A stretch of DNA of 64,000 bases from Candidatus Proruminimicrobium quisquiliarum. GTDB lineage: Bacteria; Elusimicrobiota; Endomicrobiia; Endomicrobiales; Endomicrobiaceae. Of this stretch, positions 2,099 through 62,815 are shown one piece after another. Under the pieces are notes generated by a model. That model saw only the letters and a program-made list of their open reading frames with translations, was not told where the DNA came from and searched no databases. The stretch spans positions 62,001-126,000 of the forward strand of contig JAHDRN010000001.1 in NCBI GenBank assembly GCA_018433245.1. Direction: 5' to 3'. A program made the translations under genes and the position numbers. How positions within the stretch are numbered: the first letter of the stretch is position 1; each line of letters begins with the position of its first letter.

Positions 2099-2127
2099 TT
2101 GCACTTATTGCATAGAATTTGTATCAT
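2099..2127 (+). promoter_or_regulatory. sigma-70 type promoter for the ABC/radical SAM cassette
   Basis: TTGCAC (2099-2104), a 17-base spacer and TATCAT (2122-2127) match a -35/-10 pair. The predicted transcript starts near 2134, downstream of the possible TTG start at 2119, which supports the ATG at 2161 as the true start of the first gene. It separates the Tad operon from the following cassette. Confidence 0.6.
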
Positions 2128-2160
2128 ATAGACCTGTTTATTTTGGAGACTAAACTCACA

Positions 2161-2925
2161 ATGAATAAGTTTAAAAGATACAGATTAATGGTTTGGGAAC
2201 TTGCATTTTCCGATTTCAGAATGAGAGACCAGGGAACTGCTCTCGGTTTTTTGTGGACGCTGCTTTATCCGCTGATTTTCTTTTTTATATTATATACTAT
2301 ATTCGCGGATTGGATGAAAGCAATAAAGGATTTTCCGCTTTATTTACTGATAGGTATGGTTCAATGGGGCTTTTTTGCGGGTGCCACGACGGCAACGATA
2401 ACGGCAATAATAAGATATTCAAATTTTATCAAAAGCATTTCTTTCCCGAAGGAATGCATAGTGTTTGCTTCAGTTCTTGCCGTAATGTTTTCTCATTTTT
2501 TTGAATTGATTATATTGATTATTTTTCTTTTCATAATAAAAGGTTATGTTACGGTATATGTTTTTTTTCTTATTCCTTTATTGCTGCTGACTTTGTATCT
2601 TATAGCCGGATTTTCTCTTTTATTATCTTTGATAGGCGTATATTTTGCCGATATGACAAGAATTTGGTCTTTGCTTACAACGATGGGTTTTTTTGTTACT
2701 CCTATATTTTACAGCGTTGATATGTTGTCTCCGACGAAACAGTATCTTATATATTTAAATCCGATGACTCATATAATTCAGGCGACAAGAGAACTGCTTC
2801 TTGATTGTAAAATACCGCAGTTGGACGGGCTACTTTATGTTTTTATCATGGCAACAGTTTTAATCGTTGTCGGTTATATTTTATTTAAAAAATTTGAAGG
2901 CTATTTTGTGGAAAAAATACAATGA
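2161..2925 (+). CDS. ABC-2 type polysaccharide exporter permease (Wzm-like)
   Basis: Inner-membrane permease of an ABC-2 exporter of the O-antigen/teichoic acid (Wzm/TagG) type. The roughly 254-residue protein has the family's N-terminal helix (WELAFSDFRMRDQGTALGFL) followed by six hydrophobic segments. Such permeases pass undecaprenyl-linked glycans across the inner membrane. I chose ATG 2161, with GGAG at 2145-2148, over an upstream TTG at 2119 that lies before the predicted transcription start. The stop overlaps the ATG of the ATPase gene. Substrate is unknown; the neighbouring glycosyltransferase and DUF5989 gene suggest a glycan or glycoconjugate. Confidence 0.87.
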   Translation: MNKFKRYRLMVWELAFSDFRMRDQGTALGFLWTLLYPLIFFFILYTIFADWMKAIKDFPLYLLIGMVQWGFFAGATTATITAIIRYSNFIKSISFPKECIVFASVLAVMFSHFFELIILIIFLFIIKGYVTVYVFFLIPLLLLTLYLIAGFSLLLSLIGVYFADMTRIWSLLTTMGFFVTPIFYSVDMLSPTKQYLIYLNPMTHIIQATRELLLDCKIPQLDGLLYVFIMATVLIVVGYILFKKFEGYFVEKIQ

Positions 2926-3659
2926 CGATCTCAATAAAAACAAATAATTTATCAAAACGCTTTAAAATAGGCACAAGAGAAAGACTGACTCTTTTTACAT
3001 CTTTAAGATATAAAATTACGGGCTCTCTTCCTGAGAGGGAATTGTGGGCTTTAAAGGATATATCTTTTTCCGTAAAAAAAGGCGAAATGGTTGCGGTAAT
3101 AGGTCATAACGGAGCCGGAAAAACGACTTTGTTCAGAATTTTATCCGGAATAATGAAGCAAACAGGCGGAACTTTTACTGTCAATGAAGAAGTTTCATGC
3201 ATGTTTGAACTTGGTCTGGGTTTTAATCTTAGATTTACAGCTTTGGAAAACGTATATCTTTACGGGGCGCTGCACGGAATTACAAGAAAAGAAATAGATA
3301 AAAAAATGGACGCAATAGTTGAGTTTGCCGAACTTGGAAATTTCATGGGGGCAAAACTCGGTGAATTTTCATCGGGTATGATAGCAAGGCTGGCTTTCGC
3401 CACCGTTATCCAGACTTTAAACGGTGTCATACTTGTAGACGAGGTATTGAGCGTAGGAGATATATCGTTTCAAAAAAAATGTTTGCAAGCTTTTGAAAAG
3501 GTATTATCTGACGGGCATACAGTTTTGTTTATATCGCACGGCATAGGCGAAGTAAAGAAATTTTGCACAAATGCGCTTTATATAGATCACGGCAGACAAA
3601 TGGCGTTCGGCCCGATTGACGAAGTTGAAGATATGTATAAACAAAAAATGAAAGTATAA
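2922..3659 (+). CDS. ABC exporter ATP-binding protein (Wzt/TagH-like, no C-terminal binding domain)
   Basis: ATPase partner of the preceding permease. The 245-residue protein has Walker A (GHNGAGKTT, about residues 62-70), a signature region with FSSGMIARLAFA, Walker B (VILVDEVLSVGD) and an H-loop (LFISHG). The N-terminal stretch before the nucleotide-binding domain and the DEVLSVGD form are typical of polysaccharide exporters. It lacks the C-terminal carbohydrate-binding domain that full-length Wzt proteins use to recognise a capped O-antigen, so export is probably not coupled to chain-end recognition, as in TagH-like or capsule systems. It overlaps the permease gene by four bases. Confidence 0.88.
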   Translation: MTISIKTNNLSKRFKIGTRERLTLFTSLRYKITGSLPERELWALKDISFSVKKGEMVAVIGHNGAGKTTLFRILSGIMKQTGGTFTVNEEVSCMFELGLGFNLRFTALENVYLYGALHGITRKEIDKKMDAIVEFAELGNFMGAKLGEFSSGMIARLAFATVIQTLNGVILVDEVLSVGDISFQKKCLQAFEKVLSDGHTVLFISHGIGEVKKFCTNALYIDHGRQMAFGPIDEVEDMYKQKMKV

Positions 3660-3669
3660 GGGGATAAAA

Positions 3670-3822
3670 ATGAAGAAATTTTTGAAGGAATTTTGGGATT
3701 TTTTCTGGGAAAAGAAAGCTTGGTGGCTTATTCCGATGTTTTTGGTGTTTATAATTTTGGGACTTCTTATTGTTTTTGCAAAAAGCAGCGCTGTCGTTCC
3801 GTTTGTATACGTTCTATTTTAA
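3670..3822 (+). CDS. DUF5989-like small membrane protein (50 residues)
   Basis: A 50-residue ORF reading MKKFLKEFWDFFWEKKAWWL followed by one hydrophobic helix (about residues 20-37) and the ending SSAVVPFVYVLF. This pattern of amphipathic W/K-rich N-terminus, one membrane span and a SAxxPFxYxLF tail matches my recollection of DUF5989, small proteins found beside glycan-modifying genes such as carbamoyltransferases. The start has a good AAGGGG Shine-Dalgarno (3658-3663). It lies 10 bases after the ABC ATPase gene and 14 before the first radical SAM gene, inside the operon. Function is unknown; a membrane-anchored accessory role is a guess. Confidence 0.75.
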   Translation: MKKFLKEFWDFFWEKKAWWLIPMFLVFIILGLLIVFAKSSAVVPFVYVLF

Positions 3823-3836
3823 TATAAGGAAATTTT

Positions 3837-4664
3837 ATGGAAAAAATTAATTTTGTATGGGATTCTCATTACAGGTGTAATTTTAGATGTCCTTACTGCT
3901 GGTTTGATAAAAACTGGGAAGAAATGGACAAATTAAATAAATATCCTCCGTTAAGTGAAATGATTGCTTTATGGGAAAGACTTTATAAGATGTACGGCGA
4001 GTGTCATTTGATGGTTACCGGCGGAGAACCGATGCTTTATCCTAATTTTATTGAATTGATAGATGCAATTTCAAAATGGCATACGGTAAAGGTAACATGC
4101 CAGCTTTCGGGTGATATGTTTACTTTTGCCAGAAAACTTAACCCTGAAAGGGTAAGGCTTGATATGAATTTTCATCCTTTGGAAACAAAACTCGAGCCTT
4201 TTATAAGAAAAGTTTTATATTTATATAAATATGGGTTTAAAGGCGGGGTTTGTTATCTTGCTTATCCGCCGAATATGGATAAAATAAAATATTACGACGA
4301 TGAATTTAAAAAACACGGTATTGTTATGGCCTTAGCTGCTTTTTGGGGCGAATATAACGGTAAAAAATATCCCGACAGTTATTCAAAAGAAGAAAGAGAA
4401 ATGATGTTGCCTTATCTCGGGGATTTAGACAGACAAAAATATCATTTGGAAGGAAGAAAAACAAAAGGAAAATTGTGCAGAGCAGGTCAAATTTATGCTT
4501 CAATTAAAGCTGACGGAACAGTTACAAGATGCGGTCCTCTGAGCAATAAACCTTTCGGCAATATTTTCGATAAAGATTTTAAATTGTTTGAAAAACCGAT
4601 GCCTTGCGAGGCAGAAATATGTCCTTGTGACGAGTACAAATGGATTGTTGATGAGGAAAGATAA
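3837..4664 (+). CDS. radical SAM protein with C-terminal SPASM-like cysteines
   Basis: A 275-residue radical SAM enzyme. The CxxxCxxC motif that binds the catalytic [4Fe-4S] cluster is C14-C18-C21 (CNFRCPYC), followed by an MVTGGEPML segment (the GGE motif). The C-terminus has a cysteine-rich region beginning KLCRAGQIYASIKADGTVTR and ending CEAEICPCDEY, like a SPASM/twitch domain that holds auxiliary clusters. SPASM enzymes often modify peptides, some modify sugars. An AGGAAA-type ribosome site precedes the ATG. First of three consecutive radical SAM genes behind the ABC exporter; the reaction cannot be inferred. Confidence 0.85.
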   Translation: MEKINFVWDSHYRCNFRCPYCWFDKNWEEMDKLNKYPPLSEMIALWERLYKMYGECHLMVTGGEPMLYPNFIELIDAISKWHTVKVTCQLSGDMFTFARKLNPERVRLDMNFHPLETKLEPFIRKVLYLYKYGFKGGVCYLAYPPNMDKIKYYDDEFKKHGIVMALAAFWGEYNGKKYPDSYSKEEREMMLPYLGDLDRQKYHLEGRKTKGKLCRAGQIYASIKADGTVTRCGPLSNKPFGNIFDKDFKLFEKPMPCEAEICPCDEYKWIVDEER

Positions 4665-4666
4665 AA

Positions 4667-6268
4667 TTGAAAATTTCTCTTATAAAGGCTCCATGGTGGG
4701 TAAGGTATTGTCCTCCGTACATACTGGCGTATTTTTCTACATATTTACGGCAATTAGGTCATAAAACATTTTGTTTTGATTTGAATAATTTATTTTACCA
4801 CCGGTGCAGTGAAGAAAATAAAAAATACTGGGATAACAGAGATTTTTATTCCGTCTGGGAAAACAATACATTTACCGATACGATATTAGAAGTTTCATCG
4901 GCAGATAAATTTATAAAAGAAATCATTGAAACAGGTTCCCATGTTTTTGTTTTTGATACCCATACTCCTTCCGTAAACATCAGTTATGCCGTTGCACAAA
5001 AAATTAAACAATTAAAACATGACGCTGTTATAGTTTTTTTCGGTCATAAATCCGCAAAAACACAAATGGCTTATGATTTTGCAAGTCAGCCGTTTATAGA
5101 TTATGTTTGTTACGGAGAAGCTGATATCCCGTTAAAAAATCTTTTAGAAAAGCTGGAAAAAGGTTTCGATATATTTAATTTGCCGGTATGTGAAGGATTT
5201 TTAGTTAAACAGAACGGAAACATTACGGACTGCGGACCGGGAGAAATTGTTAAAGATCTTGATACTCTTCCGATACCGGATTATGCTGATTTTAAAGAAG
5301 ACATATTAAACAATAAATATTCCCAGCCTAACAGACTTGATTTGCTTGATTCAAGAGGCTGCGTTAATGCGTGCCATTTTTGTTATGAAAGATTATTTTG
5401 GCCAAAATACAGAATTATGAGCGCAAAAAGATTGTTTGAACAGGTTGTAAAACACATCAAAGATTTTCCGCAGATAAATTATTTTTATTTCAATGGTTTA
5501 TTAATTAACGGGAATTTGAAAGTTTTAGAGGGATTTTGTGATTTGGTTATACAAAATAATATAAAAATTTCTTGGGCAGGACAGGCAATTGTCAGAAACG
5601 ATATGACTTTTGAATTATTAAAAAAAATGAAGCAGGCCGGCTGCGGATGGGTCGGATACGGGATTGAATCAGGTTCGCAAAAAGTTTTAAATGCAATGAA
5701 TAAAAATTTTGATATAACAAAAGCATTGCCGTTGTTCAAAAATACAAGAGAAGCAGGTATATCATTTCAGATAAATATGATGTGCGGGTTTCCTGTTGAA
5801 ACGGAAGAAGATTTTAATGAAACCCTTAAATTTTTAAAATTAGCCAGACCTTACGTAAATTCCATTCTGGCAAGCCAGTCTTTTTTTACGCTTGAAAAAT
5901 GTACTTACATAAAAAATAATCCTCAACAATTCGGCATTACAAATGCAGAACATCATTTATACTGGAAATCCCGTGACAATGACTATCCGGTAAGATTTGA
6001 AAGATATGAAAGATTATGCAAATTGGCGTTGGAGTTAAAATATCCTGAGACATCCGGAATAAGCGCAGTAAAGCCGGATAAATGGTTTTTGCTGGGAGAA
6101 TATTATTTTTATGATAAGGATTACAAAAAAGCAAAAGAATGTTATGATAAATCCATAGAAACTGAATTTAAATCAAAAGAAGTTTACGAGAAATTGATTG
6201 TAATTGCAGAAAAATTAAATGATGCCTGTTCAAAAGCCGTATATGTTGGCGAATTAAATAAAATGTAA
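4667..6268 (+). CDS. B12-binding-type radical SAM protein with C-terminal TPR-like region
   Basis: A 533-residue protein built like the cobalamin-binding radical SAM family. The N-terminus (MKISLIKAPWWVRYCPPYIL) and the region to about residue 190 resemble the B12-binding fold. The radical SAM motif is C232-C236-C239 (CVNACHFC), followed by a GYGIESGSQ segment typical of this class. The last 80 residues (WFLLGEYYFYDKDYKKAKEC) look like a TPR repeat. The start is a TTG at 4667, supported by GAGGAAAG six bases upstream. Such enzymes often do methylations or rearrangements on unactivated carbons; the substrate here is unknown. It sits two bases after the previous gene. Confidence 0.82.
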   Translation: MKISLIKAPWWVRYCPPYILAYFSTYLRQLGHKTFCFDLNNLFYHRCSEENKKYWDNRDFYSVWENNTFTDTILEVSSADKFIKEIIETGSHVFVFDTHTPSVNISYAVAQKIKQLKHDAVIVFFGHKSAKTQMAYDFASQPFIDYVCYGEADIPLKNLLEKLEKGFDIFNLPVCEGFLVKQNGNITDCGPGEIVKDLDTLPIPDYADFKEDILNNKYSQPNRLDLLDSRGCVNACHFCYERLFWPKYRIMSAKRLFEQVVKHIKDFPQINYFYFNGLLINGNLKVLEGFCDLVIQNNIKISWAGQAIVRNDMTFELLKKMKQAGCGWVGYGIESGSQKVLNAMNKNFDITKALPLFKNTREAGISFQINMMCGFPVETEEDFNETLKFLKLARPYVNSILASQSFFTLEKCTYIKNNPQQFGITNAEHHLYWKSRDNDYPVRFERYERLCKLALELKYPETSGISAVKPDKWFLLGEYYFYDKDYKKAKECYDKSIETEFKSKEVYEKLIVIAEKLNDACSKAVYVGELNKM

Positions 6269-6290
6269 TGTTTTGTTATCGGAGAAAAAA

Positions 6291-7412
6291 TTGAAAGAGC
6301 TAAAAGATTTTATTTACAGGTTTGGCGAATTTATAGAAAAAACGGTGCCTTCAAGGGATATTTCATGTATAGCGCCGGAAGAATTGCATTTTGAATTAAC
6401 GTATAATTGCAATACCGATTGTGTTATGTGTAATTTGAAATATTTAAAAGATAAAGAAAAAAAAGAACTTACTTTTGATGAGATTAAAAAATTTGTTCAA
6501 CAGTCAAAATATTTAAAAAATATAAAATTTATAGTTGTCAGCGGTGGGGAACCTCTTCTGCGACATGATATTATCGATATTGTAAAATTTTTAAGACAAT
6601 ATTATCCTAATACAGAAATATTAATTCTTTCGAATTTATATGATGAAAAACTGGTATTTAATAAACTTAATTTAATAAAAAAAGATATAGGATTACATAA
6701 ATTATCAATAGGAACATCTATAGATGCCGTAGGAAAAACACATGATGCCATCAGAGGCCAAATTAATGCATTTGAAAATTTATCCAAAAATCTGGAAAGG
6801 TTAAAAAAAGAGTTTCCTGAAGTTTATTTCAGTTTGAATTATACGTTAATGCCGAGCAATTGCGATAAGATGGTTGAAGTGTATGATTGGTGTTCAGAGA
6901 AAGGGTATCACGTATCTTTTCAGATGTTTGTTCAAAAAGCAGAAACAGAACAATTTATATGGGAAAATGATGTGCTCGAAAAAATTGAAGAGCAGATAGA
7001 TGAAATAACAAAAAAAATGGCGAAAGAATGCAATATAGAAAAATTTGATGAAAATATATTTCTGCAAAATGAAGGGCTTACTTCAAGATTTTTATCGCTG
7101 TACTATATAGTCAAATATATAAAGAATAAAAAAAGATTTTTTCCCAATTGTCCGTGTGGCGAGAAATATGCAATGATAAATCCTTACGGAGAAGTTTACT
7201 TTTGTCCGGTTTACAAAAATATTTTTGCAGGAGACTTAAAAAACGATCCTTTTGACGTTTTGTGGAGTTCCAAGAAAGCTCAAGACGCAAGAGATTTTTT
7301 TAATTCAAAAAAATGTCATTGCTGGCTGACATGCACAAACGGATATATGCTGCAGGACGGCATATCGTACGGGAAACAATTGTATATAGCGCAAAAATAT
7401 AAAAATAAATAA
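6291..7412 (+). CDS. radical SAM/SPASM domain protein
   Basis: Third radical SAM gene in a row. The motif is C40-C44-C47 (NCNTDCVMC), followed by VVSGGEPLL. The C-terminus carries a SPASM-type cysteine pattern: FFPNCPCGEKYAMINPYGEV, then CPVYKNIFAGDL, then CHCWLTCTNG. I chose the TTG at 6291 because GGAG lies six bases upstream (6281-6284); the longer in-frame TTG at 6273 has no such site. The product is then 373 residues. SPASM proteins often act on ribosomal peptides, but no precursor peptide gene is visible nearby, so a sugar or lipid-linked substrate is equally possible. Confidence 0.84.
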   Translation: MKELKDFIYRFGEFIEKTVPSRDISCIAPEELHFELTYNCNTDCVMCNLKYLKDKEKKELTFDEIKKFVQQSKYLKNIKFIVVSGGEPLLRHDIIDIVKFLRQYYPNTEILILSNLYDEKLVFNKLNLIKKDIGLHKLSIGTSIDAVGKTHDAIRGQINAFENLSKNLERLKKEFPEVYFSLNYTLMPSNCDKMVEVYDWCSEKGYHVSFQMFVQKAETEQFIWENDVLEKIEEQIDEITKKMAKECNIEKFDENIFLQNEGLTSRFLSLYYIVKYIKNKKRFFPNCPCGEKYAMINPYGEVYFCPVYKNIFAGDLKNDPFDVLWSSKKAQDARDFFNSKKCHCWLTCTNGYMLQDGISYGKQLYIAQKYKNK

Positions 7413-7414
7413 AA

Positions 7415-8404
7415 ATGATAAATATAACCGTAGCTATTATTTCTTCAAATAACAAATATGAATATTTACGTGAAACTGTTTCCTATATAAAACAATTTAA
7501 TGCGGATGTTTTTATTGTTCTTAACGGTCTTAATCAAATAATATCCGAATTTTTAAAAGAAACTAAAAACACATATCCGAATTTAGATTATATAGTTATT
7601 AATGAAAAAGTTGAAAAATCTACCGCAAGAAATCTCTGTGTTGAAAATATAAAGTCCGATGTGATTTATTTTTTGGATGATGACGCTTTCTTTACTGATG
7701 ACAATATCAAAATTTTACAGGATAAATTTTCCAGATATCCTTTTGTCGGAGTTATAGGCGGGCCTAATTTAACTCCTGAAAATTCTGCCCGTTTTGCAAA
7801 AATTACAGGCATAATGCTCTCAACTTATTTTCTTTCCTGGAAAATGAGCCGCAGATATCAGCGTTTCGGCAGTGACAGATTTACGGATGATTCCGAATTA
7901 ATTCTTTGTAATTTGGCGATAAAGAGAGATATTTTTATAAAATATAATTTACAGTTTGAAAAAAAATTACATTACAACGAAGAAAATCTGTTGATTGAAC
8001 AGATTAAGAAAAACAATATAAAAGTGATGTATACGCCGGATTTATCGGTATATCACCACAGAAGAAATTCCATAGAAGAGTTCAGTCTGCAGGTTTTAAA
8101 TTCCGGAAAAGGCAGGGCTTTAATGTTGTTTTTTATGCCGTCAAGCATACGGTTTATATATGTGCTGCCGGCTTTATTCGTTATATATTTGACATACTCT
8201 TTATTGTTTACGACAAAATTTATTTTTTTAGTAGTATATTTACTGCTTACGGTTAATAATATCGCAAATGTTTTTTTTAACAATAAGCTTAAAATTAAAG
8301 ATATTCCGCTTATGTTTTTGATTTCTTTTTCGGCGCATTTATTTTACGGAATAGGTTTTATAGCCGGTGTATTTCAGGGAATTATATGGAAATTAAAAAA
8401 ATAA
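7415..8404 (+). CDS. family 2 glycosyltransferase with C-terminal membrane segments
   Basis: A 329-residue GT-A fold glycosyltransferase. The N-terminal nucleotide-binding region begins MINITVAIISSNNKYEYL, and a DxD-type motif appears as FLDDDAFF (about residues 90-97). NLAIKRDIF and a later YNEENLL provide the usual acceptor-site region. The last 80 residues are hydrophobic with at least two membrane spans, so it is anchored in the inner membrane. It begins two bases after the radical SAM stop without an obvious Shine-Dalgarno and overlaps the next gene by 19 bases. It is the main hint that the cassette handles a glycan. Donor and acceptor are unknown. Confidence 0.85.
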   Translation: MINITVAIISSNNKYEYLRETVSYIKQFNADVFIVLNGLNQIISEFLKETKNTYPNLDYIVINEKVEKSTARNLCVENIKSDVIYFLDDDAFFTDDNIKILQDKFSRYPFVGVIGGPNLTPENSARFAKITGIMLSTYFLSWKMSRRYQRFGSDRFTDDSELILCNLAIKRDIFIKYNLQFEKKLHYNEENLLIEQIKKNNIKVMYTPDLSVYHHRRNSIEEFSLQVLNSGKGRALMLFFMPSSIRFIYVLPALFVIYLTYSLLFTTKFIFLVVYLLLTVNNIANVFFNNKLKIKDIPLMFLISFSAHLFYGIGFIAGVFQGIIWKLKK

Positions 8405-9393
8405 CTTTTAATTTTTATGGTATTAAAGTCTGCGTTTGCGGATATAGCGCCATAGCAGAAAAGATTGCAGGGGATTTTGAATATTTTAAGGATCTAAATC
8501 TTTCGGCTTGCGATATAAATTTAAACGTAAATTTAGTTAACCCACCTTATGAAAAAATTCCGAAAATATGCGCGTCAATGTATAAGAACGACTGTATAAG
8601 TTATGATTCCGGCTTTATGCGGTATGTTGATTATTCTGGTAAAGCGCTTGCAATATATAATACAAAAACAAATTCCGCAGATTTTTTTTCAATTGACGAA
8701 GATTTGCTTTATGAAATCGTTTATCTGTTTATTCATTCAAGAACGGGCGAACTGCTTGATAAAAAAGGAATGCACAGGATTCATGCGTGTTCATTTTCAT
8801 ATAATGAAAAAATTTGCATCGTTATGCTTCCTCAGGGCGGCGGTAAAAGCACATTGCTGATGGAATTATTAAAAAACAGCGGAATTAAACTTATTTCAGA
8901 CGACACTCCTTTTGTTGACGCCAAAGGGCAAATATATCCTTTTCCTATAAGGATAGGAGTAAGCGGCGATGTTGATACGGAATATATTCCGAGTGAATAC
9001 ATATCAATCTTTAACAGAAGAAAATTCGGCCTGAAAAAATTGATCGGTTATCAATTTTTCAAAAACAGAATAGAAACAAAAAAACATCCTGTTATTATTA
9101 TCTGCGGCATGAGATGTTTTTCAGATTATCCTTTTATGGCCAAAGGCGGTATTTTTACCGGTTTTTCTTATTTGCTTAAAAATTGTGTTGTCGGATACGG
9201 ATTGCCGCAGGTATTGGAATATTTTTTAATAGGCGGATTTAAAGATAATTTTTCAAAAATTAAAATCATCTTTTCAAGATTCCGCTCCTGCATAAATCTT
9301 TTAATGAAAAATAGACAAATTTATTGTTTTCATATTTCAAATAAAAAATCCGAAAATGCAGAGTATTTGCTGCGAGAAATAGCCAAATTGTAA
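8386..9393 (+). CDS. HPr kinase-like P-loop protein
   Basis: A 335-residue protein resembling the HprK-related family in polysaccharide and peptide-modification clusters, not the PTS regulator. After an N-terminal domain of about 125 residues come MHRIHACSFSYNEKI, a glycine-rich P-loop (PQGGGKST, about residues 149-156) and LISDDTPFV, where the acidic pair corresponds to the HprK metal/catalytic region. Known members phosphorylate small molecules or peptides; the target here is unknown. No PqqD, lasso-peptide cyclase or HPr gene is in view. It is the last gene of the cassette, overlapping the glycosyltransferase gene by 19 bases. Confidence 0.72.
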   Translation: MEIKKITFNFYGIKVCVCGYSAIAEKIAGDFEYFKDLNLSACDINLNVNLVNPPYEKIPKICASMYKNDCISYDSGFMRYVDYSGKALAIYNTKTNSADFFSIDEDLLYEIVYLFIHSRTGELLDKKGMHRIHACSFSYNEKICIVMLPQGGGKSTLLMELLKNSGIKLISDDTPFVDAKGQIYPFPIRIGVSGDVDTEYIPSEYISIFNRRKFGLKKLIGYQFFKNRIETKKHPVIIICGMRCFSDYPFMAKGGIFTGFSYLLKNCVVGYGLPQVLEYFLIGGFKDNFSKIKIIFSRFRSCINLLMKNRQIYCFHISNKKSENAEYLLREIAKL

Positions 9394-9432
9394 ACGGTTT
9401 GATTTTACAGCAGTTTATTTGTTTATACAACC

Positions 9433-9464
9433 TTGACAACAAAAAATGCTTTTTATATTATAAT
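9433..9464 (+). promoter_or_regulatory. promoter of the coiled-coil/zapA/6S segment
   Basis: A perfect -35 TTGACA (9433-9438) with TATTAT (9456-9461) at 17 bases or TATAAT (9459-9464) at 20. With the 17-base spacing, transcription would start at about 9468, exactly at the GTG used by the next gene, suggesting a leaderless mRNA. Confidence 0.7.
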
Positions 9465-9467
9465 AGA

Positions 9468-9695
9468 GTGGAAGAAGAGTTAAGAATATTATCAATAAAG
9501 CTTACGAAATTATCAAAGTCGTACAAAAAGCTGAAAGAAGATAATGAAAGGTTAAAAGCCGATATAGGATATTTGAAAGAAGAGGAAGAACGGCACAGAG
9601 CAAGAATGATTGAAAATGAAACATTGAAAGAAAGGCAAAACAGAGCCGTGAAAAAACTGGAAACGGTTTTAAAAAAAATTTCTAAAGGCGAGTAA
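9468..9695 (+). CDS. small coiled-coil protein upstream of ZapA
   Basis: A 75-residue, highly charged protein that is one continuous predicted coiled coil (KLTKLSKSYKKLKEDNERLK, then heptads to the C-terminus). I place the start at GTG 9468: the upstream in-frame extension covers the promoter and does not look coding. In gammaproteobacteria and others, small coiled-coil proteins of the ZapB/FtsB type accompany ZapA; here the next gene, nine bases on, is ZapA-like, so a divisome role is a reasonable inference. Sequence similarity to ZapB cannot be proven by eye because coiled coils look alike. Confidence 0.65.
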   Translation: MEEELRILSIKLTKLSKSYKKLKEDNERLKADIGYLKEEEERHRARMIENETLKERQNRAVKKLETVLKKISKGE

Positions 9696-54925: not shown

Positions 54926-56239
54926 TTAATTTTTTAAAACAGAATCTTTTATAAACATTCTTTTTGCTGTTTTTAATATTATTTCTAAATCAAGAAAAAT
55001 TGAACGATTCTTTATATACCATATATCATAAGATAATCTTTTATATGCATCGTCAAAAACAATGTCGGGATTTTTATTTTCAAAAAATGATTTATCTTGA
55101 ACACAATAAACAATAGGAGCTTTATGATTTAACTGAGCATGTCCGGTTAAACCGGGCGTAATCATGGTTCTGACAATGTTGTTTGGGATGTGATTATTTA
55201 TAAAGTTATATTCCTGGCTCCAAATTGGACGTGGCCCGACAAATGATATATCTCCTTTTAATATATTTACAAGTTGCGGCAGTTCGTCAAGTCTGAAATT
55301 TCTCAAAATTTTACCTAATTTGGTTGCTGTTTCCGTATTTGGAATCATTGTTCTGAATTTATAAATATAAATATGTATTCCGTTTTTGCCGATTCGCTGC
55401 TGAGAAAATATAGGATTTGATTTGTCTATATTTTTTATCAAAAAATAAATCAAAATTATGATCGGTAAAAAAATTATGAGAAGAAATATACTCGCTATAA
55501 TATCAATTGCTCGTTTTATTATAGAAGAAATAATATTGTTTATAGAGTTTGTTGTTATGCTTTGAAAAAGCCATAAACTGTCTTTTATTCCTTCAATCGG
55601 AGTTCTATTTAAAAAATCTTCAAAGAAAACGATATCAGTTTTTATCTCAACATTTTTTATTAATAATTTTCCAAAAACGTCAGCTAAAATTTTTTTGTTG
55701 TTTAATAAAAGGGCATTTGATATAACTATCAACTCGGTTTCTTTCGGTAAATAATCAGAATATTCATCAAAATTTCCGACGATTTTATAATAGGGGGAAT
55801 TGGCAAGTTCTTTCTGAAGTTTTCCCATCGTCATACTTTTACCTATTAAAGTTATATTTGTCTGTTTTTTAAAAACTGTAAGATATATCTTTCTTGAAAA
55901 AATTATATATAGGTAATATATAATAAAAATTATTATTAAATTTGTTTTAGGCGTTACAAGTTTAAATACTGGTGCAAGAAAATAGATAATTGTTGATGAA
56001 AAGAGAAAAGTGAATATAAAAGCTATTAGAAGATTTCTATAATTTATTTTATGTAATTTGTTAAAATCATAAAGTGAAAATATAAACAAATCTAAAGTTA
56101 TAATCGTAAAAGCAGGTATTAATACAAAAAAATTGGCTATAAAAAAACTTACATTATATGAACTGCTTCTTGTTGCAAGAACGATTACTGCGATGATTAA
56201 AAATACAGCAAAGTCTAAAAGTAAAAAAAACATTCTCAT
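54926..56239 (-). CDS. polyprenyl-phosphate sugar phosphotransferase (initiating transferase)
   Basis: Starts polysaccharide synthesis by moving a sugar-1-phosphate to undecaprenyl phosphate in the inner membrane. The 437-residue protein has four to five N-terminal spans, a central CoA-binding-like region, one more span, and the C-terminal bacterial sugar transferase domain: FRTMIPNTETATKLGKILRN, RLDELPQLVNILKGDISFVG and PRPIWSQEY, with the catalytic DE in RLDELPQ. This is the WbaP/EpsE-type layout. It is transcribed on the minus strand from beyond the LMW phosphatase gene, away from the other glycosyltransferases, but clearly belongs with them. Confidence 0.92.
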   Translation of the reverse strand: MRMFFLLLDFAVFLIIAVIVLATRSSSYNVSFFIANFFVLIPAFTIITLDLFIFSLYDFNKLHKINYRNLLIAFIFTFLFSSTIIYFLAPVFKLVTPKTNLIIIFIIYYLYIIFSRKIYLTVFKKQTNITLIGKSMTMGKLQKELANSPYYKIVGNFDEYSDYLPKETELIVISNALLLNNKKILADVFGKLLIKNVEIKTDIVFFEDFLNRTPIEGIKDSLWLFQSITTNSINNIISSIIKRAIDIIASIFLLIIFLPIIILIYFLIKNIDKSNPIFSQQRIGKNGIHIYIYKFRTMIPNTETATKLGKILRNFRLDELPQLVNILKGDISFVGPRPIWSQEYNFINNHIPNNIVRTMITPGLTGHAQLNHKAPIVYCVQDKSFFENKNPDIVFDDAYKRLSYDIWYIKNRSIFLDLEIILKTAKRMFIKDSVLKN

Positions 56240-56291
56240 TTTTGTTTACGCTCTCGTTTAACAAATTTTTCAATTTGCACGGAAGTACTGT

Positions 56292-56747
56292 TTAATTGGT
56301 CAAGTTCAATTTTTTTGCTGTTTTTAAAACAGCTTCTTTGATTTTTGTTGCAATTTTATCAAATTGTTTGCCGGTTTTTCCGATAGGATCCGGCATATCT
56401 TCTTTTGTGTTATCGGCAAACTCTAAAAATAAATGTATTTTATCTGTAAACTCTGCATATTTATCGGTTAGTAATTCTAATTGTTCATTTGTCATTACAA
56501 AAATCAAATCGCTTGTGACTATATCATCTTTAGCTATTAAGGCAGGGGTATGTTTTTTGTATTCAATACCATTTTTTATTAAAAAATCTATGTTTTTTTG
56601 CGGCATTTGGCAGTCTTCAAAAGCAAAAACACCTCTGGAAATAACTTCAGTACCGGTTATAAGGCTGTCAGATATGATTTTTTTAAAAAACTCCTGAGCT
56701 AAAAAACTTCTGCATACATTAGCATGGCATACAAAACATATTTTCAT
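56292..56747 (-). CDS. low molecular weight protein-tyrosine phosphatase (Wzb-like)
   Basis: A 151-residue phosphatase. The P-loop is at the extreme N-terminus: C7-HANVC-R13-S14 in ICFVCHANVCRS, matching C(x)5R. The general-acid Asp lies in DMPDPIGKTGKQFDK (about residues 115-120). I use ATG 56747; the upstream ATG 56753 adds two residues. Wzb-type enzymes dephosphorylate the tyrosine kinase that controls capsule export, but no BY-kinase is in the window. It shares the intergenic region with the plus-strand EPS genes and lies near the sugar transferase. Confidence 0.87.
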   Translation of the reverse strand: MKICFVCHANVCRSFLAQEFFKKIISDSLITGTEVISRGVFAFEDCQMPQKNIDFLIKNGIEYKKHTPALIAKDDIVTSDLIFVMTNEQLELLTDKYAEFTDKIHLFLEFADNTKEDMPDPIGKTGKQFDKIATKIKEAVLKTAKKLNLTN

Positions 56748-56755
56748 ACACATAA

Positions 56756-56785
56756 ACTATATCAAATTATGATTATTTTTATCAA
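56756..56785 (-). promoter_or_regulatory. promoter of the LMW phosphatase gene
   Basis: Minus-strand TTGATA (56780-56785), an 18-base spacer and TATAGT (56756-56761). The -10 box ends eight bases before ATG 56747, so the transcript is likely leaderless or nearly so. Confidence 0.6.
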
Positions 56786-56796
56786 TAATCTTTTGG

Positions 56797-56802
56797 TATA
56801 AT
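56797..56802 (+). promoter_or_regulatory. -10 box of the plus-strand EPS operon
   Basis: Perfect TATAAT (56797-56802) ends seven bases before the GTG start at 56810. No good -35 is visible. Divergent from, and about 11 bases from, the -35 of the LMW phosphatase promoter. Confidence 0.5.
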
Positions 56803-56809
56803 AATATAC

Positions 56810-57622
56810 GTGATTAATCAAGAGTTTTCAGTATTGATGTCAGTTTATTATAAAGATAATCCACAGTGGCTCAAAGAAGCCATTGAAAGTGTTATTAATC
56901 AAACTGTTAAACCATCACAAATTCTTTTAGTTATTGATGGTCCTATTGGCAAAGATTTAGAAGAAATTATATCTAATTTTGCTGAGAAATTAGATATTCT
57001 CCGTTTAAAAGAAAATTCAGGGTTAGGAATAGCGTTGCAAAAAGGACTTGAACTATGCAAATATCCTTTAGTTGCCAGAATGGACAGCGATGACATAAGT
57101 CTTCCTATCCGTTTTGAATTGCAGTTAAAAGAATTTAGCAATAACTCAAATTTGAGTATACTAAGCGGATTTGTTCAGGAAATTGACTGTGATACTAAAG
57201 AAGAATTAAGTATAAGAAAAGTTCCGTTGACGGATGTTGATATAAAACAATATATAAAAACACGTTCTCCTTTCAATCACCCATGCGTAATGTTTAAAAA
57301 AGATGATGTTTTAAAGGTTGGTAATTATCAACCTTTTCACTTTTTAGAAGATTATTATCTCTGGATAAGAATGGTAAAAAATAATTTCAATATGAAAAAT
57401 TTGCCTAAAGTTATGTTAAACATGAGAGTTAATAAGAATTTATATGTAAGAAGAGGCGGATACAAATATTTTAGAAACAATATATTTCTAAATAAAGAAA
57501 TGTTAAAACTAGGGATAATTAATTATCCTTTTTATATATTTAATATTGTAGTTCGTTTTAGTGCACAAGTTTTGATGCCAAATAAATTAAGAGAACTTTT
57601 TTACAAAAAGGCTTTGAGATAA
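56810..57622 (+). CDS. family 2 glycosyltransferase
   Basis: A 270-residue GT-A enzyme. It has FSVLMSVYYKDNPQWLKEAI, ENSGLGIALQKGLELCK and the DxD motif in RMDSDDISLP (about residues 87-96), followed by HPCVMFKKDDVLKVGNYQ and FLEDYYLWIRM, the ED(Y) base region. No membrane spans, so it acts at the cytosolic face. The GTG start at 56810 needs no leader given the -10 box upstream, and no Shine-Dalgarno is seen. First of the plus-strand EPS genes, coupled to the radical SAM gene by a one-base overlap (TAATG). Confidence 0.9.
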   Translation: MINQEFSVLMSVYYKDNPQWLKEAIESVINQTVKPSQILLVIDGPIGKDLEEIISNFAEKLDILRLKENSGLGIALQKGLELCKYPLVARMDSDDISLPIRFELQLKEFSNNSNLSILSGFVQEIDCDTKEELSIRKVPLTDVDIKQYIKTRSPFNHPCVMFKKDDVLKVGNYQPFHFLEDYYLWIRMVKNNFNMKNLPKVMLNMRVNKNLYVRRGGYKYFRNNIFLNKEMLKLGIINYPFYIFNIVVRFSAQVLMPNKLRELFYKKALR

Positions 57623-58722
57623 TGGAAAAAATAAAGAGATTTATTGAATGTTTAATTCCTATTACCGGATGCAACTTAAAATGTGGTTACTGTTATGTTA
57701 TTCAAAGAAATAAAAGAAGTTTGCAAAGTGCTGTGATGAAATATTCTCCCGAACAAATAGGCTTGGCCATGAACAAAATGCGTTGGGGCGGTACTTGTTA
57801 TTTTAGCATTTGTGGAGCAGGAGAAACTATTCTGCAAAAAGATATAGAGGAAATTGTTTTTAATATTTTAAAAAATGGACATTATGTAAATATTACCACC
57901 AATGGAACTATAACAAATCAGTTAAATAAAATATTAGACAAATCCTTATCTTTTATAAATCATTTACACTTTTCTTTTTCTTTTCATTATTTAGAACTTC
58001 TGGATAAAAATTTATTAGATGTGTTTTTTGATAATGTTAAAAAATGTAAAGAAAAAGGTGCATCCATAATGGTGCAGGTTAATATGTGCGATGAATATTT
58101 GCCATATTTGGAAGATATGAAAAATTTGTGTATAAAAAACATAGGAGCAATGCCGCAAATAGCAGCGACTCGCAAAGAAATGTCAGGGTTGCAGAAAATA
58201 GAATTATTAACTTCTCATACTGAACAAGAATATAAAATGTTTGGCAAAAGTTTTAATTCCCCTTTATTTGATTTTACAATGAAGAATTTTAATGTAAAAA
58301 GAAAAGAATTTTGTTATGCAGGGGATTGGAGCGGCAATTTAAATCTTGCTACCGGTATATTTAGGAGATGTTATGCTTCTTGCATACATCAAGATATTTT
58401 CAAAAATCCAAAAGAAAAAATAAATTTTTTAGCTGTAGGAAATCACTGCGGAAGTTCATTTTGTATGAATTCCAGTCATTTTATGTCATTGGGCACAATA
58501 CCAAGTTTGCAAGCTCCAACTTATGCGCATTTAAGGAATAGAAAAGAATCCGGATGGTACACTAAAGAGATGGAAAATTTTTTATCCGGCAAATTAAAAG
58601 ATAATAACAATGAATATAGCAGTTTCAAAAAAATTATTTGTAACAGTGTTGGTTTAATAGATAACCTTATTTATTTTATTTATGTTAGAATAAAAAAAAA
58701 TAGAAGAAAAAATGCTTATTAG
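57622..58722 (+). CDS. radical SAM protein in the polysaccharide locus
   Basis: A 366-residue radical SAM protein. The cluster motif is C17-C21-C24 (CNLKCGYC), followed by FSICGAGETIL (a GAGE variant of the usual GGE) and MVQVNMCDEYLPYLEDM. Further cysteines lie in the C-terminal half (KEFCYAGDWSGNLNLATGIF, then RRCYASC and GNHCGSSFCMN), which could bind auxiliary clusters. It differs from the three cassette enzymes. It lies among glycosyltransferases, so it may modify a sugar or surface peptide; no substrate is visible. Overlaps neighbours on both sides. Confidence 0.8.
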   Translation: MEKIKRFIECLIPITGCNLKCGYCYVIQRNKRSLQSAVMKYSPEQIGLAMNKMRWGGTCYFSICGAGETILQKDIEEIVFNILKNGHYVNITTNGTITNQLNKILDKSLSFINHLHFSFSFHYLELLDKNLLDVFFDNVKKCKEKGASIMVQVNMCDEYLPYLEDMKNLCIKNIGAMPQIAATRKEMSGLQKIELLTSHTEQEYKMFGKSFNSPLFDFTMKNFNVKRKEFCYAGDWSGNLNLATGIFRRCYASCIHQDIFKNPKEKINFLAVGNHCGSSFCMNSSHFMSLGTIPSLQAPTYAHLRNRKESGWYTKEMENFLSGKLKDNNNEYSSFKKIICNSVGLIDNLIYFIYVRIKKNRRKNAY

Positions 58723-59758
58723 AAATATTTTGCCAATAAATTGTTATTATAAATTGAGATTTCTCAAAGATTTTATATTTCAGAAATCTATCAGTATATC
58801 GTTGTCAAAACAAAAAAAAATTTGGTTTTTGGATTCGCCTTCTTACGGGAATTTAGGGGATCAGTCTATTGCTTATGCTACTGCTAAATTTTTAAAAGAC
58901 AATTTGCCCGATTATCAGTTAATTGAAGTTATGGAAAATAAGTTAATTTCCTGTTTGTCTTATCTAAAAAGAAAAATAGAGAAAGAAGATTTGGTTGTTT
59001 TGCAGGGCGGCGGAAATCTTGGAAATTTATACTCAAGATATGAATTTTTGAGAAGACAAGTTATTAAGAACTTTCCCGATAATAAAATTATTATTTTTCC
59101 TCAATCTATTTACTTTTCTGATACCGCAAAAGGCCGAAAAGAACAAAAAATTTCATCCGAAATATATGGTAAACATAAAAATTTAATTGTTTGTGCCAGA
59201 GACAGTAAGGCAGCTTCCGTAATGCAACAAGTTTTTTTTAAAAATAAAATTTGTTTATGCCCGGATATTGCGTTATATTTAATAAATTTAGTAAATGGCA
59301 ATAATAGATCCGGTGTTGGTGTTTGTTTAAGAGAGGATTCTGAAAAAATACCTTTAAATGAATCTCAAAATAGATTTTTGCAAAATATTTATAAAAAATA
59401 TAGAAAAATCGAAACGTTAACAACTTTATCACTTGAAAAACAAAATATCGTGTCAAATTTAAGAGAAAAGTTGGTTTTAGAAAAGTTAAAAGAATTTAGT
59501 AAATATCAGCTTATTATTACAGATAGATTGCATGGAATGATTTTCGCTTATATTACATCAACACCTTGTATAGTTTTTACCAGTAAAACAGAAAAAGCAG
59601 AAAATTTATATAAAGATTGGCTTAAAGACTGCTCTTTCGTTTCTATTTATAACGGTCATGAAAAACTAGATAGTATATTTGAAAATTGCAAGCCGGAAAG
59701 TCTGAATTTTTCTAATTTAATTTCTGTTTTACAAGAAACTAAAGGGTTTAAATTATGA
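58712..59758 (+). CDS. polysaccharide pyruvyl transferase-family protein
   Basis: A 348-residue protein of the PF04230 type, which adds pyruvate ketal groups to EPS sugars. It has FLDSPSYGNLGDQSIAYATA near the N-terminus, VVLQGGGNLGNLYSRYE, NKIIIFPQSIYFSDT, and RLHGMIFAYITSTPCIVFTS near the C-terminus, all typical. It overlaps the radical SAM gene by 11 bases and the GT14 gene by four bases. Some members instead are sugar transferases, so the pyruvyl activity is likely but not certain. Confidence 0.85.
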   Translation: MLIRNILPINCYYKLRFLKDFIFQKSISISLSKQKKIWFLDSPSYGNLGDQSIAYATAKFLKDNLPDYQLIEVMENKLISCLSYLKRKIEKEDLVVLQGGGNLGNLYSRYEFLRRQVIKNFPDNKIIIFPQSIYFSDTAKGRKEQKISSEIYGKHKNLIVCARDSKAASVMQQVFFKNKICLCPDIALYLINLVNGNNRSGVGVCLREDSEKIPLNESQNRFLQNIYKKYRKIETLTTLSLEKQNIVSNLREKLVLEKLKEFSKYQLIITDRLHGMIFAYITSTPCIVFTSKTEKAENLYKDWLKDCSFVSIYNGHEKLDSIFENCKPESLNFSNLISVLQETKGFKL

Positions 59759-60630
59759 AACTTGCTATTTTGCTTTTATGTCATAAAAATCCTGACCAAA
59801 TAAATAAATTTTTAGAGGTTATGAGACATTCGCAGATTGTTTTTTTTATCCATATTGATAAGAAAAATAATTTTGCCGAACAAATTGTTAAAAGAGATGA
59901 TGTTTATGTATTACCTGATAATTTCTGTCAAGATATTCAATGGGGTAATATATCTATGGTTCAAGCAACATTGAATTTAATTGAATTTGCCCTTTCTAAA
60001 AATCTTTCTTTTGATTATTTTTGGCTTTGTTCAGGACAGGATTTTCCGATAAAACCGGTTAAAGAAATTATTAATTTTTTAGAAAATAAAACAGATAATT
60101 TTATTAATTTGTTTAATTCAAAAAATTCTGTAGGAAAATATAGCAATTATGATAAAAGAAACAGTTTGTATTATCCTGCATGGATAATGGGTAACAGCTT
60201 GTTTCAAAGAATTTTAAAAAGAATTTATGTAATAATTACCGGAGGTTATAAAAAAACTTATTTTTTAAATCGCAAGAATAGTACAAAGTTTGATTTTTAT
60301 TTTGGTTCTCAATGGTGGTGCTTAAATAACAAAACAATAAAATGGATAATGGCTTATTGCAAAGACAACAATGAATATTATGAGTTTCATAAAAATTGTG
60401 TGGTGCCTGACGAATCTTTTTTTCATACGCTTGTTCTAAATTCACCTTTTGCTAAAGATAGAAAAGATTATTTACATTATATTGATTGGTCTGATTCCGG
60501 GAATTCTCCAAAAACGTTGACTTTAAAAGATTTAGACAAAATAGTTGCAAGTCCATTTTTAATGGCCAGGAAATTAGATTTTCAAGTTGATAAAAATTTA
60601 TTTCAAATAATTATAAATAGGATATTGTAA
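59755..60630 (+). CDS. core-2/I-branching-type glycosyltransferase (GT14-like)
   Basis: A 291-residue protein of the beta-1,6-N-acetylglucosaminyltransferase (core-2/I-branching) family. It has LAILLLCHKNPDQINKFLEV and IHIDKKNNFAEQIV, then WGNISMVQATLNLIEFAL, WLCSGQDFPIKPVKEIINFL and the PDESFFHTLVLNSPF motif with its catalytic glutamate. Such enzymes in bacteria make branches on EPS or host-like glycans. Four-base overlap with the pyruvyl transferase gene and one-base overlap with the next gene. Confidence 0.83.
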   Translation: MKLAILLLCHKNPDQINKFLEVMRHSQIVFFIHIDKKNNFAEQIVKRDDVYVLPDNFCQDIQWGNISMVQATLNLIEFALSKNLSFDYFWLCSGQDFPIKPVKEIINFLENKTDNFINLFNSKNSVGKYSNYDKRNSLYYPAWIMGNSLFQRILKRIYVIITGGYKKTYFLNRKNSTKFDFYFGSQWWCLNNKTIKWIMAYCKDNNEYYEFHKNCVVPDESFFHTLVLNSPFAKDRKDYLHYIDWSDSGNSPKTLTLKDLDKIVASPFLMARKLDFQVDKNLFQIIINRIL

Positions 60631-61727
60631 TGCAAAAAATCGTTTATATCATTTCTACATTAAAAAAAGCCGGACCGGTAAATGTACTTTTAGATTTAGT
60701 GTCTAATTTAGACAGAACAAAGTATAAACCTTATATTATTACCCTCTCAAAAGAGACAGAAACTTCACAGAAAGAATCATTTCAACAATTAAATTTGCCA
60801 ATGATCTGTCTTAATTTATCACGTTATACTTCTGTTTTTTTAGGTCATTTTAAATTAAACCGTATAATAAATAAAATCAAACCTGATTTAATACACACTC
60901 ATTGTTTTAGATCTAATATGCTGGCAATTACAGCATTAAGAAAATATAAAACATTTACTAGTATTCATTGTGATTTTACGGAAGATTTTCCTTTGCACTA
61001 TGGTAAATTGATTGGTTTTTTAGCTTGTAAAATAAATATTTTCGCTATTAAAAGAATATCAAAAACAATTTGCGTTTCCAAAACACTTGCAAATATATTG
61101 GGTGGAAAGTTTCCAAAGTTAAGATTTTTTGCTGTTGATAATGGGATAAATATGACAAATTTTTGTCCTTCTAAAGATAAATTATCTTTGAGAAAAAAAT
61201 TACATTTGCCATTTGATAAAAAAATTTTTATTTGGTGCGGCAGTTTTATTCATCGTAAAAATCCTCTTCTTTTGGTTGAAAGTATAAAACAGTTTAAAAA
61301 TGATAATTGTTTTTTTATTTTTTGCGGTGCCAAAGGAATCTTATTCGAACAAGCTAAAGATGAACTTAAAAACTATAAAAATGTTCTATTTGCAGGATAT
61401 TTAGATAACATTGCGGAATATTTGCAGGCGAGTGATTTTTATATTTCTACTTCTCTTTCCGAAGGATTTCATCTGACTGTTTATGAATCTATGGCTTGCG
61501 GTGTGCCTGTAATATTACCTAAAATCAGCGTTTATAATAAAATATTTGAAAACGATATGGCTTTAACATTTTGTTTGTCGGATGTTCAAACATTAACTAA
61601 ATGTTTAGAAGATTCTTTGAGGTTAGACTATAAAATATGGAGAGATAATTCCATAATTTTTGTAAAAAAATATTTTTCTGCTCAAGTCATGACAAAAAAT
61701 TATCAAAAGTTTTATGAGGATATTTGA
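60630..61727 (+). CDS. family 4 glycosyltransferase (GT-B)
   Basis: A 365-residue GT-B enzyme. N-terminal domain: VYIISTLKKAGPVNVLLDLV and DLIHTHCFRSNMLAI. C-terminal donor domain: KKIFIWCGSFIHRKNPLLLV, YLQASDFYISTSLSEGFHLT and VYESMACGVPVILPK, with the E(x)7E-type motif. Typical of EPS and O-antigen assembly. It overlaps the EpsG-like gene only at its stop. Donor and acceptor are unknown. Confidence 0.9.
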   Translation: MQKIVYIISTLKKAGPVNVLLDLVSNLDRTKYKPYIITLSKETETSQKESFQQLNLPMICLNLSRYTSVFLGHFKLNRIINKIKPDLIHTHCFRSNMLAITALRKYKTFTSIHCDFTEDFPLHYGKLIGFLACKINIFAIKRISKTICVSKTLANILGGKFPKLRFFAVDNGINMTNFCPSKDKLSLRKKLHLPFDKKIFIWCGSFIHRKNPLLLVESIKQFKNDNCFFIFCGAKGILFEQAKDELKNYKNVLFAGYLDNIAEYLQASDFYISTSLSEGFHLTVYESMACGVPVILPKISVYNKIFENDMALTFCLSDVQTLTKCLEDSLRLDYKIWRDNSIIFVKKYFSAQVMTKNYQKFYEDI

Positions 61728-61729
61728 AA

Positions 61730-62815
61730 ATGATTTATTTTATTGTTATTTATATTGCTGTTATAACTTTAAGTTTTGCTGATTTTACATCTAAATTTAA
61801 TAAATTCGGGACTTGGGCTTGTATAATTTTACTTTCCTGTTTGTCAGGATTTCGCAATTTAGGCGGAAAGGATTTTTTTGTTTATCAACAAATGTATGAA
61901 ACAAATATTTTTTATAGGGGCATAGAAAAATTTTATATCATAATAAATCAATTATTTTCAAATTTAGGCGTTTCTTATAATGTTTTTTTATTTATACTTT
62001 CTTTTATTGCTATTTTACTTTTAATAAGCGCGTATCAAAAAATATCTTATTTTCCTAAACTTTCATTAATGTTTTATTTAGGGACTTATTTCTTCTATTA
62101 CAATATGATTCTTAATCGGCAGATGATAGCAGTGGCTTTACTTTTATGGGTAATATATTTTTGGGATAAAAATAAAATATATAGTTTTGTACTTTTGCTT
62201 TTCGGTTTTTTATTTCATCAAAGCATAATCGTTATTTTACCGTTCTTATTTATTTTTAGTTTCATTAAAAAAGGTAAAATTTTATTAGGTTTTTGTTTAA
62301 TAACAGGTCTTTTAGCCGCATTATTTATAAACCCTCAAAGTATTATGAATTATATATTTAGCGGGGAAGAATCAATTGTTACAAACAGACTAATCGGATA
62401 CATGGTAAAAGCTGAAGGCAGCAATTATTCAGTTGAGCTTTTTGAATATATTAAATTGGCAGTTATTCTTTGTATTATAATTCCTGTCTGGAAAAAACTA
62501 TTTCAAGATTCCAAAACATCAGTTTGGCTATTTTTATATTGCATAGGTGCAATATTTTTACTGTGGAGTTCTAAGTTTGAAATCATGTTCCGTATTTTTA
62601 TGTATTTTGATTTAAGTTTCACTATTTTAGTGCCTGCCGCTATAAGAATATATTTAAATAAAATAGCTTTAACCAAATCTCAAAAAAATTTTTCTATATT
62701 ACTCGTTTACATTATGATTGGTATTATTGCTTTAATTTCTATTTTGCACCGTATTACAAATTTCGATCAAGGTTCATTTTTAGACTATAAATTTTATTTT
62801 ATAGAGTATTTATGA
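61730..62815 (+). CDS. EpsG-family polysaccharide polymerase (Wzy-like)
   Basis: A 361-residue inner-membrane protein with about ten hydrophobic segments, including YFIVIYIAVITLSFADF and CLSGFRNLGGKDFFVYQQMY, a conserved EpsG loop with FRNLGGKDFFVY. EpsG-type proteins polymerise repeat units, like Wzy. I choose ATG 61730, nine bases after GAGGA; the TTG at 61724 lies too close to that site. No flippase (Wzx) is in the window; it may lie downstream. It overlaps the next glycosyltransferase by four bases (ATGA). Confidence 0.85.
   Translation: MIYFIVIYIAVITLSFADFTSKFNKFGTWACIILLSCLSGFRNLGGKDFFVYQQMYETNIFYRGIEKFYIIINQLFSNLGVSYNVFLFILSFIAILLLISAYQKISYFPKLSLMFYLGTYFFYYNMILNRQMIAVALLLWVIYFWDKNKIYSFVLLLFGFLFHQSIIVILPFLFIFSFIKKGKILLGFCLITGLLAALFINPQSIMNYIFSGEESIVTNRLIGYMVKAEGSNYSVELFEYIKLAVILCIIIPVWKKLFQDSKTSVWLFLYCIGAIFLLWSSKFEIMFRIFMYFDLSFTILVPAAIRIYLNKIALTKSQKNFSILLVYIMIGIIALISILHRITNFDQGSFLDYKFYFIEYL

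Follow-up and report, generated by a model that had tools for sequence, protein, structure and literature searches.

An eight-gene cassette encoding an ABC exporter, three radical SAM proteins (RS1 to RS3), a DUF5989 membrane peptide, a GT2 glycosyltransferase and an HprK-like P-loop protein was identified in the window, that is, the whole 64,000-nucleotide stretch analyzed here, which belongs to the genome designated G000. These eight genes are a conserved export-and-assembly cassette, and they constitute the smaller half of a system whose remaining components, comprising 30 further radical SAM genes, a solenoid nucleotidyltransferase (NTase)-like protein and three glycosyltransferases, lie elsewhere in the genome. 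Together, cassette and array probably make and export a heavily radical-modified surface molecule. The initial annotation of this DNA had recognized the cassette, which is real; the far larger radical SAM array had escaped it.

Gene content and conservation of the cassette

The cassette lies close to the interval marked by the initial annotation, with all its genes on the forward strand and intergenic gaps of -19 to +14 bp:

2119..2925, +, ABC-2 permease, Wzm/TarG-like (Pfam ABC2_membrane, 54.4 bits)
2922..3659, +, ABC ATPase, Wzt/TarH-like (Pfam ABC_tran, 70.7 bits)
3670..3822, +, DUF5989 membrane peptide, 50 aa (PF19451, 67.2 bits; cut-off 27)
3837..4664, +, RS1, radical SAM protein, STM4011-like (PF04055, 41.9 bits)
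4667..6268, +, RS2, radical SAM protein with a B12-binding-like N-terminus and C-terminal TPR (PF04055, 67.5 bits; TPR_2, 25.5 bits)
6273..7412, +, RS3, radical SAM/SPASM protein, twitch-like (PF04055, 58.2 bits; SPASM, 31.9 bits)
7415..8404, +, GT2 glycosyltransferase with a hydrophobic C-terminal segment (PF00535, 57.4 bits); its position between RS3 and the HprK-like gene is conserved
8386..9393, +, HprK-like P-loop protein with a PEPCK/HPr-kinase fold; last gene of the cassette

RS1 orthologues were found in 10 of the 60 genomes searched, G000 counted. A search for the eight genes in the same order, as the initial annotation had proposed, recovered all of them with identical order and strand in four genomes, namely G000 and its relatives G001, G011 and G020, the latter three spanning two genera. 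This conservation is far beyond chance, and in G011 and G020 the cassettes sit at a different chromosomal site, between other genes; the eight-gene block is therefore one unit, tightly packed as the initial annotation had described it. The same comparison delimits the conserved block, which runs from the permease to the HprK-like gene and stops there. ORF9 (9399-9695) and the gene that follows it were considered as further members and rejected, as both are missing beside the cassette in G011 and G020.

Scattering of the homologues among relatives, which had been named as evidence against a system, was mostly not what we found: besides the four genomes with intact order, the cassette genes of distant families remain in one region, interleaved with others, and G041 carries only RS2-RS3-GT2-HprK without RS1, which indicates that this sub-block can occur alone. 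The relatives' loci add YdjC-GT2, PMT, carbamoyltransferase and SGNH-TPR genes. In G028 the contig ends after RS2, and in G024 the ABC genes do not adjoin RS1. An apparent case of cassette decay was observed in G034, with RS1 broken by stop codons (locus L057, contig C170) and the HprK-like gene alone on another contig (L235). When named genome contigs were scanned with RS1, nearly all matches were short and distant; the only near full-length RS1-like gene was in an Armatimonadetes MAG (L063), with RS1-like sequence at two nearby places (55-840 and 1771-2562; 30% identity), and thus the RS1 family reaches beyond the phylum of G000.

The genes are presumably co-transcribed. The description of the unit as promoter-led is unproven, since promoter-like sites in the region scanned were as numerous as expected from shuffling (39 vs 38.6), none fell in the 62 bp upstream of the cassette, and the sole strong site lies after it. 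This sigma-70-like site (9433-9461; 11/12, TTGACA-17-TATTAT) is located just 3' of the cassette, before a ZapB-like coiled-coil gene.

The exporter was correctly assigned to the polysaccharide-type Wzm/Wzt class, as the Pfam matches and the nearest solved chains agree. Those of the ATPase (245 aa) are the ABC transporter 6amx/8dku (E 3e-47), TarH (6jbh), TagH (9cfl) and O-antigen RfbE. The pair thus resembles the Wzm/Wzt, TarGH and O-antigen/galactan ABC exporters in its permease-ATPase arrangement and in an ATPase closest to Wzt/TarH/RfbE chains, but differs from them in its association with radical SAM arrays, in scores far under the NCBIfam equivalog cut-offs, and in an ATPase whose only match above cut-off is ABC_tran, without the C-terminal glycan-binding (substrate-recognition) domain. 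Such a domain is present in only some O-antigen Wzt proteins. The conserved start of the permease is probably the ATG at 2161; its orthologues are the first cassette gene in G001, G011 and G020 (84, 73 and 75% identity, respectively).

The radical SAM proteins had been described as two SPASM-like and one B12-type with TPR, which holds in part. RS3 is a SPASM protein by its Pfam score and also matches the N_Twi_rSAM model (89.8 bits, below the model's cut-off), while the SPASM match of RS1 (18.8 bits) falls under the cut-off of 21.5; the TPR region of RS2 is clear, and its N-terminal B12-binding match is weak (17.5 bits, under the cut-off of 32.1). RS1 is the best-conserved cassette gene (98.5% to G001), with an invariant CX3CX2C motif and conserved C-terminal cysteines. 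Its nearest named family is STM4011 (NF038073; 88 bits), yet below the cut-off of 200.

The HprK-like protein has no Pfam match, the HprK domain included. Its initial naming is correct at the fold level, because the AF2 model (pLDDT 87) matches PEPCK (E 2e-10) and HPr kinase (1ko7, E 4e-6) in Foldseek searches, and the P-loop GGK and SDDT motifs are invariant. It thus shares the fold, P-loop and SDD motif of HPr kinases and of HprK-related kinase A (TIGR04352), from which it differs in score (18.5 bits; cut-off 200) and in adjoining GT2 and radical SAM genes.

The DUF5989 peptide was correctly identified, but the family is not specific to this system: it is found in 100 of 341 genomes of the phylum vs 33 of 341 for RS1-like proteins, and elsewhere in the phylum, where checked, it adjoins a carbamoyltransferase or SxtJ. 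On these grounds it was rejected as a precursor peptide. The cassette shares the DUF5989 family with carbamoyltransferase-SxtJ-DUF5989 modules; it contains neither of the two partners, and radical SAM genes come after DUF5989 instead. The carbamoyltransferases of G000 lie elsewhere in the genome.

The radical SAM array and its linkage to the cassette

The G000 genome holds 82 radical SAM matches. On contig C23, 28 consecutive radical SAM genes occupy positions 231736-273410 (41.7 kb) on a single strand, without other genes and with gaps of at most 62 bp. Orthologues defined by reciprocal best hits are collinear with G000 in G001 (26/26), G011 (20/20), G037 (15/15), G038 (10/10) and G040 (8/10). 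We carried out a domain census of 33 proteins, of which 25 are encoded in the G000 array, two on contig C25 and three in the cassette; the remaining three were taken from the G011 array in place of G000 array genes left out. Radical_SAM (PF04055) and CX3CX2C were present in 33/33, SPASM in 20, TPR in about nine, B12-binding in three (that of the member at C23:231736 is clear, with 50 bits) and an STM4011 match in eight; the alignment shows no invariant residues besides Met1 and the three CX3CX2C cysteines.

In transcription order, the array is preceded by a beta-solenoid gene cut at the contig end, whose other half starts contig C25. No direct sequence overlap was found between the two contigs; they are taken as adjacent because truncated halves of one gene occur in four genomes, the gene being split likewise at contig ends in G001, G011 and G020. 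A repeated DNA sequence at the end of the G011 contig may explain these breaks. If both halves are one gene, the protein has at least 1,800 aa, and no signal peptide is evident. The C-terminal ~500 residues have no Pfam match and carry an LRRG...DWIxGxSDID motif, invariant in six sequences. Foldseek relates this C-terminus to the AadA/ANT aminoglycoside nucleotidyltransferase fold (prob 1.00 but E 7e-3, from an uneven model with pLDDT 75.5), and the protein is therefore described here as putatively NTase-like. On C25, the solenoid gene is preceded by GT2, two radical SAM genes, GT4 and GT2, an order kept in G001, G011 and G020, to which the latter two add one radical SAM gene. In G037 (L054, 13052-18445), the solenoid frame holds much of the C-terminal domain twice with identical sequence, reflecting either a recent duplication or an assembly artefact.

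Whether cassette and array belong together was assessed by linkage and co-occurrence. That they are two separate systems, an ABC glycan cassette and an unrelated cluster that merely co-occurs with it, would fit with their being unlinked in G000, G001 and G011 and with the sub-block of G041. We consider this quite improbable: in G037, G038 and G040, all from other families, the array and cassette genes are found at a single locus, and RS1 is paralogous to array members, with identities up to 44%. Within the order, co-occurrence is near-exact, with array paralogues in 9 of the 10 genomes with RS1, the tenth being G034. In G292, a radical SAM array lies next to the genes for the ATPase, the permease and the HprK-like protein. 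RS1-like proteins were detected in 33 of the phylum's 341 genomes (18 of 100 genera) and HprK-like proteins in 54 (two weak matches excluded), the latter in 27/33 genomes with the RS1-like family vs 27/308 without it (Fisher p 2e-19 by genome and 5e-11 by genus, values inflated by the relatedness and non-independence of the genomes).

Other radical SAM loci were also observed. In the window, an exopolysaccharide-like cluster of the Wzy type (54926-63684) encodes glycosyltransferases, a pyruvyltransferase-like protein and a radical SAM protein of its own (57622-58722). G000 also carries a gene set for diderm lipid A, which together with the pattern of kinship may point to an Elusimicrobiota (Endomicrobia-like) genome. 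A second cluster of radical SAM genes in G000 (C6, 23-45 kb; L012/L013) includes several B12-type genes, a PMT-like protein and an apparent U32 peptidase-like gene, and a U32-like gene lies near the radical SAM array of G204 (L171). In distant arrays (L166, 217-882; L163, 4753-6432), a metallo-beta-lactamase-fold protein is found beside radical SAM genes and apparently fused to them.

Proposed function and alternative readings

From the observed gene content, folds, conserved order, linkage and co-occurrence, we tentatively favor a system of glycan or glycoconjugate assembly, radical modification and ABC export, encoded in two loci (one in distant relatives), in which the cassette would be the export and late-assembly module. 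Export and glycosyl transfer are assigned from homology, and we infer the chemistry, the glycan nature of the product, the substrates, the reactions and the order of steps. The glycosyltransferases, of which the array operon encodes three and the cassette one, would build the glycan or glycoconjugate in the cytosol. Serial modifications, for which dehydrogenation, epimerization, C-C or C-S bond formation and C-methylation are candidates, would then be installed by the ~33 radical SAM enzymes; most of these are SPASM/STM4011-like, many have TPR regions and a few are of the B12 type. The giant beta-solenoid, which carries a domain resembling aminoglycoside nucleotidyltransferases, may act as scaffold and/or substrate activator, the PEPCK/HprK-fold protein possibly phosphorylates the substrate, and the Wzm/Wzt-type pair would export the product. 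Like the initial annotation, we infer a modified, perhaps phosphorylated glycan.

A glycan is favored because the ATPase is nearest to Wzt/TarH/TagH/RfbE, glycosyltransferases occur in both halves, and relatives' loci contribute the YdjC-GT2, PMT, SGNH-TPR and carbamoyltransferase genes, the last also among the neighbors of DUF5989 together with SxtJ. Several points count against it: the cassette has no sugar-nucleotide pathway, acceptor-loading enzyme or polymerase; SPASM proteins are known chiefly from work on peptides; the B12-binding match of RS2 stays below its cut-off; the two halves are unlinked in G000 and the co-occurrence counts come from related genomes; and the solenoid NTase match derives from an uneven model, with E above 0.001.

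SPASM radical SAM proteins act mostly on peptide substrates, and the rival that we take most seriously, while judging it unlikely, is that they modify a polypeptide here, perhaps the solenoid itself as a RiPP-like, oversized precursor decorated by the glycosyltransferases. The solenoid lies at the 5' end of the array and is the fastest-diverging protein (32% identity to G011 vs 39-88% for the enzymes), and the B12-type members have sub-threshold matches to RiPP C-methyltransferase models. The solenoid nevertheless bears an enzyme-like NTase domain, DUF5989 is common without the array, and Wzm/Wzt pairs do not usually export folded proteins. Further, profile scans of cassette and census proteins gave no PqqD/RRE match, no linked precursor peptide was found, and the array gaps leave no space for a small precursor gene. 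The statement of the initial annotation that no precursor peptide, PqqD or flippase is visible is supported.

Sub-threshold matches of the system's radical SAM proteins to HpnJ, BchE and ladderane-lipid models, together with the absence of a dedicated glycan polymerase, could instead point to a lipid or secondary metabolite as the modified substrate, with the ABC pair as its exporter; this is improbable given several glycosyltransferases, a glycan-class exporter and the deacetylase and carbamoyltransferase neighbors in relatives.

Novelty and significance of the system

To our knowledge, an operon with so many radical SAM genes is not part of any described system; in the pathways familiar to us, each product requires one to a few radical SAM enzymes. 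Radical SAM/SPASM RiPP clusters share SPASM-type enzymes with this system but contain one to a few rather than ~33, and here neither a precursor peptide nor PqqD was found. As the initial annotation had suspected, no described system matching the combination was found: a limited literature search of partial coverage returned no system or paper with such radical SAM arrays, and the word 'radical' is absent from the main text of an Endomicrobia genome paper (PMC11257099). The newness resides in the combined system and not in any single protein family.

Associated with glycosyltransferases, an exporter and a giant solenoid NTase-like protein, the conserved run of 28 radical SAM genes implies unusually dense radical chemistry. 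It places many uncharacterized enzyme families in one pathway and connects them to a single product in a way that can be tested. A more speculative and rather doubtful proposal is a radical SAM assembly line, in which ~30 enzymes would successively modify one glycan (or polypeptide) for export by its dedicated ABC transporter, and the many TPR regions could dock on the cytosolic solenoid NTase. If this is true, the product would belong to a so far undescribed class of surface polymers hypermodified by radical chemistry.
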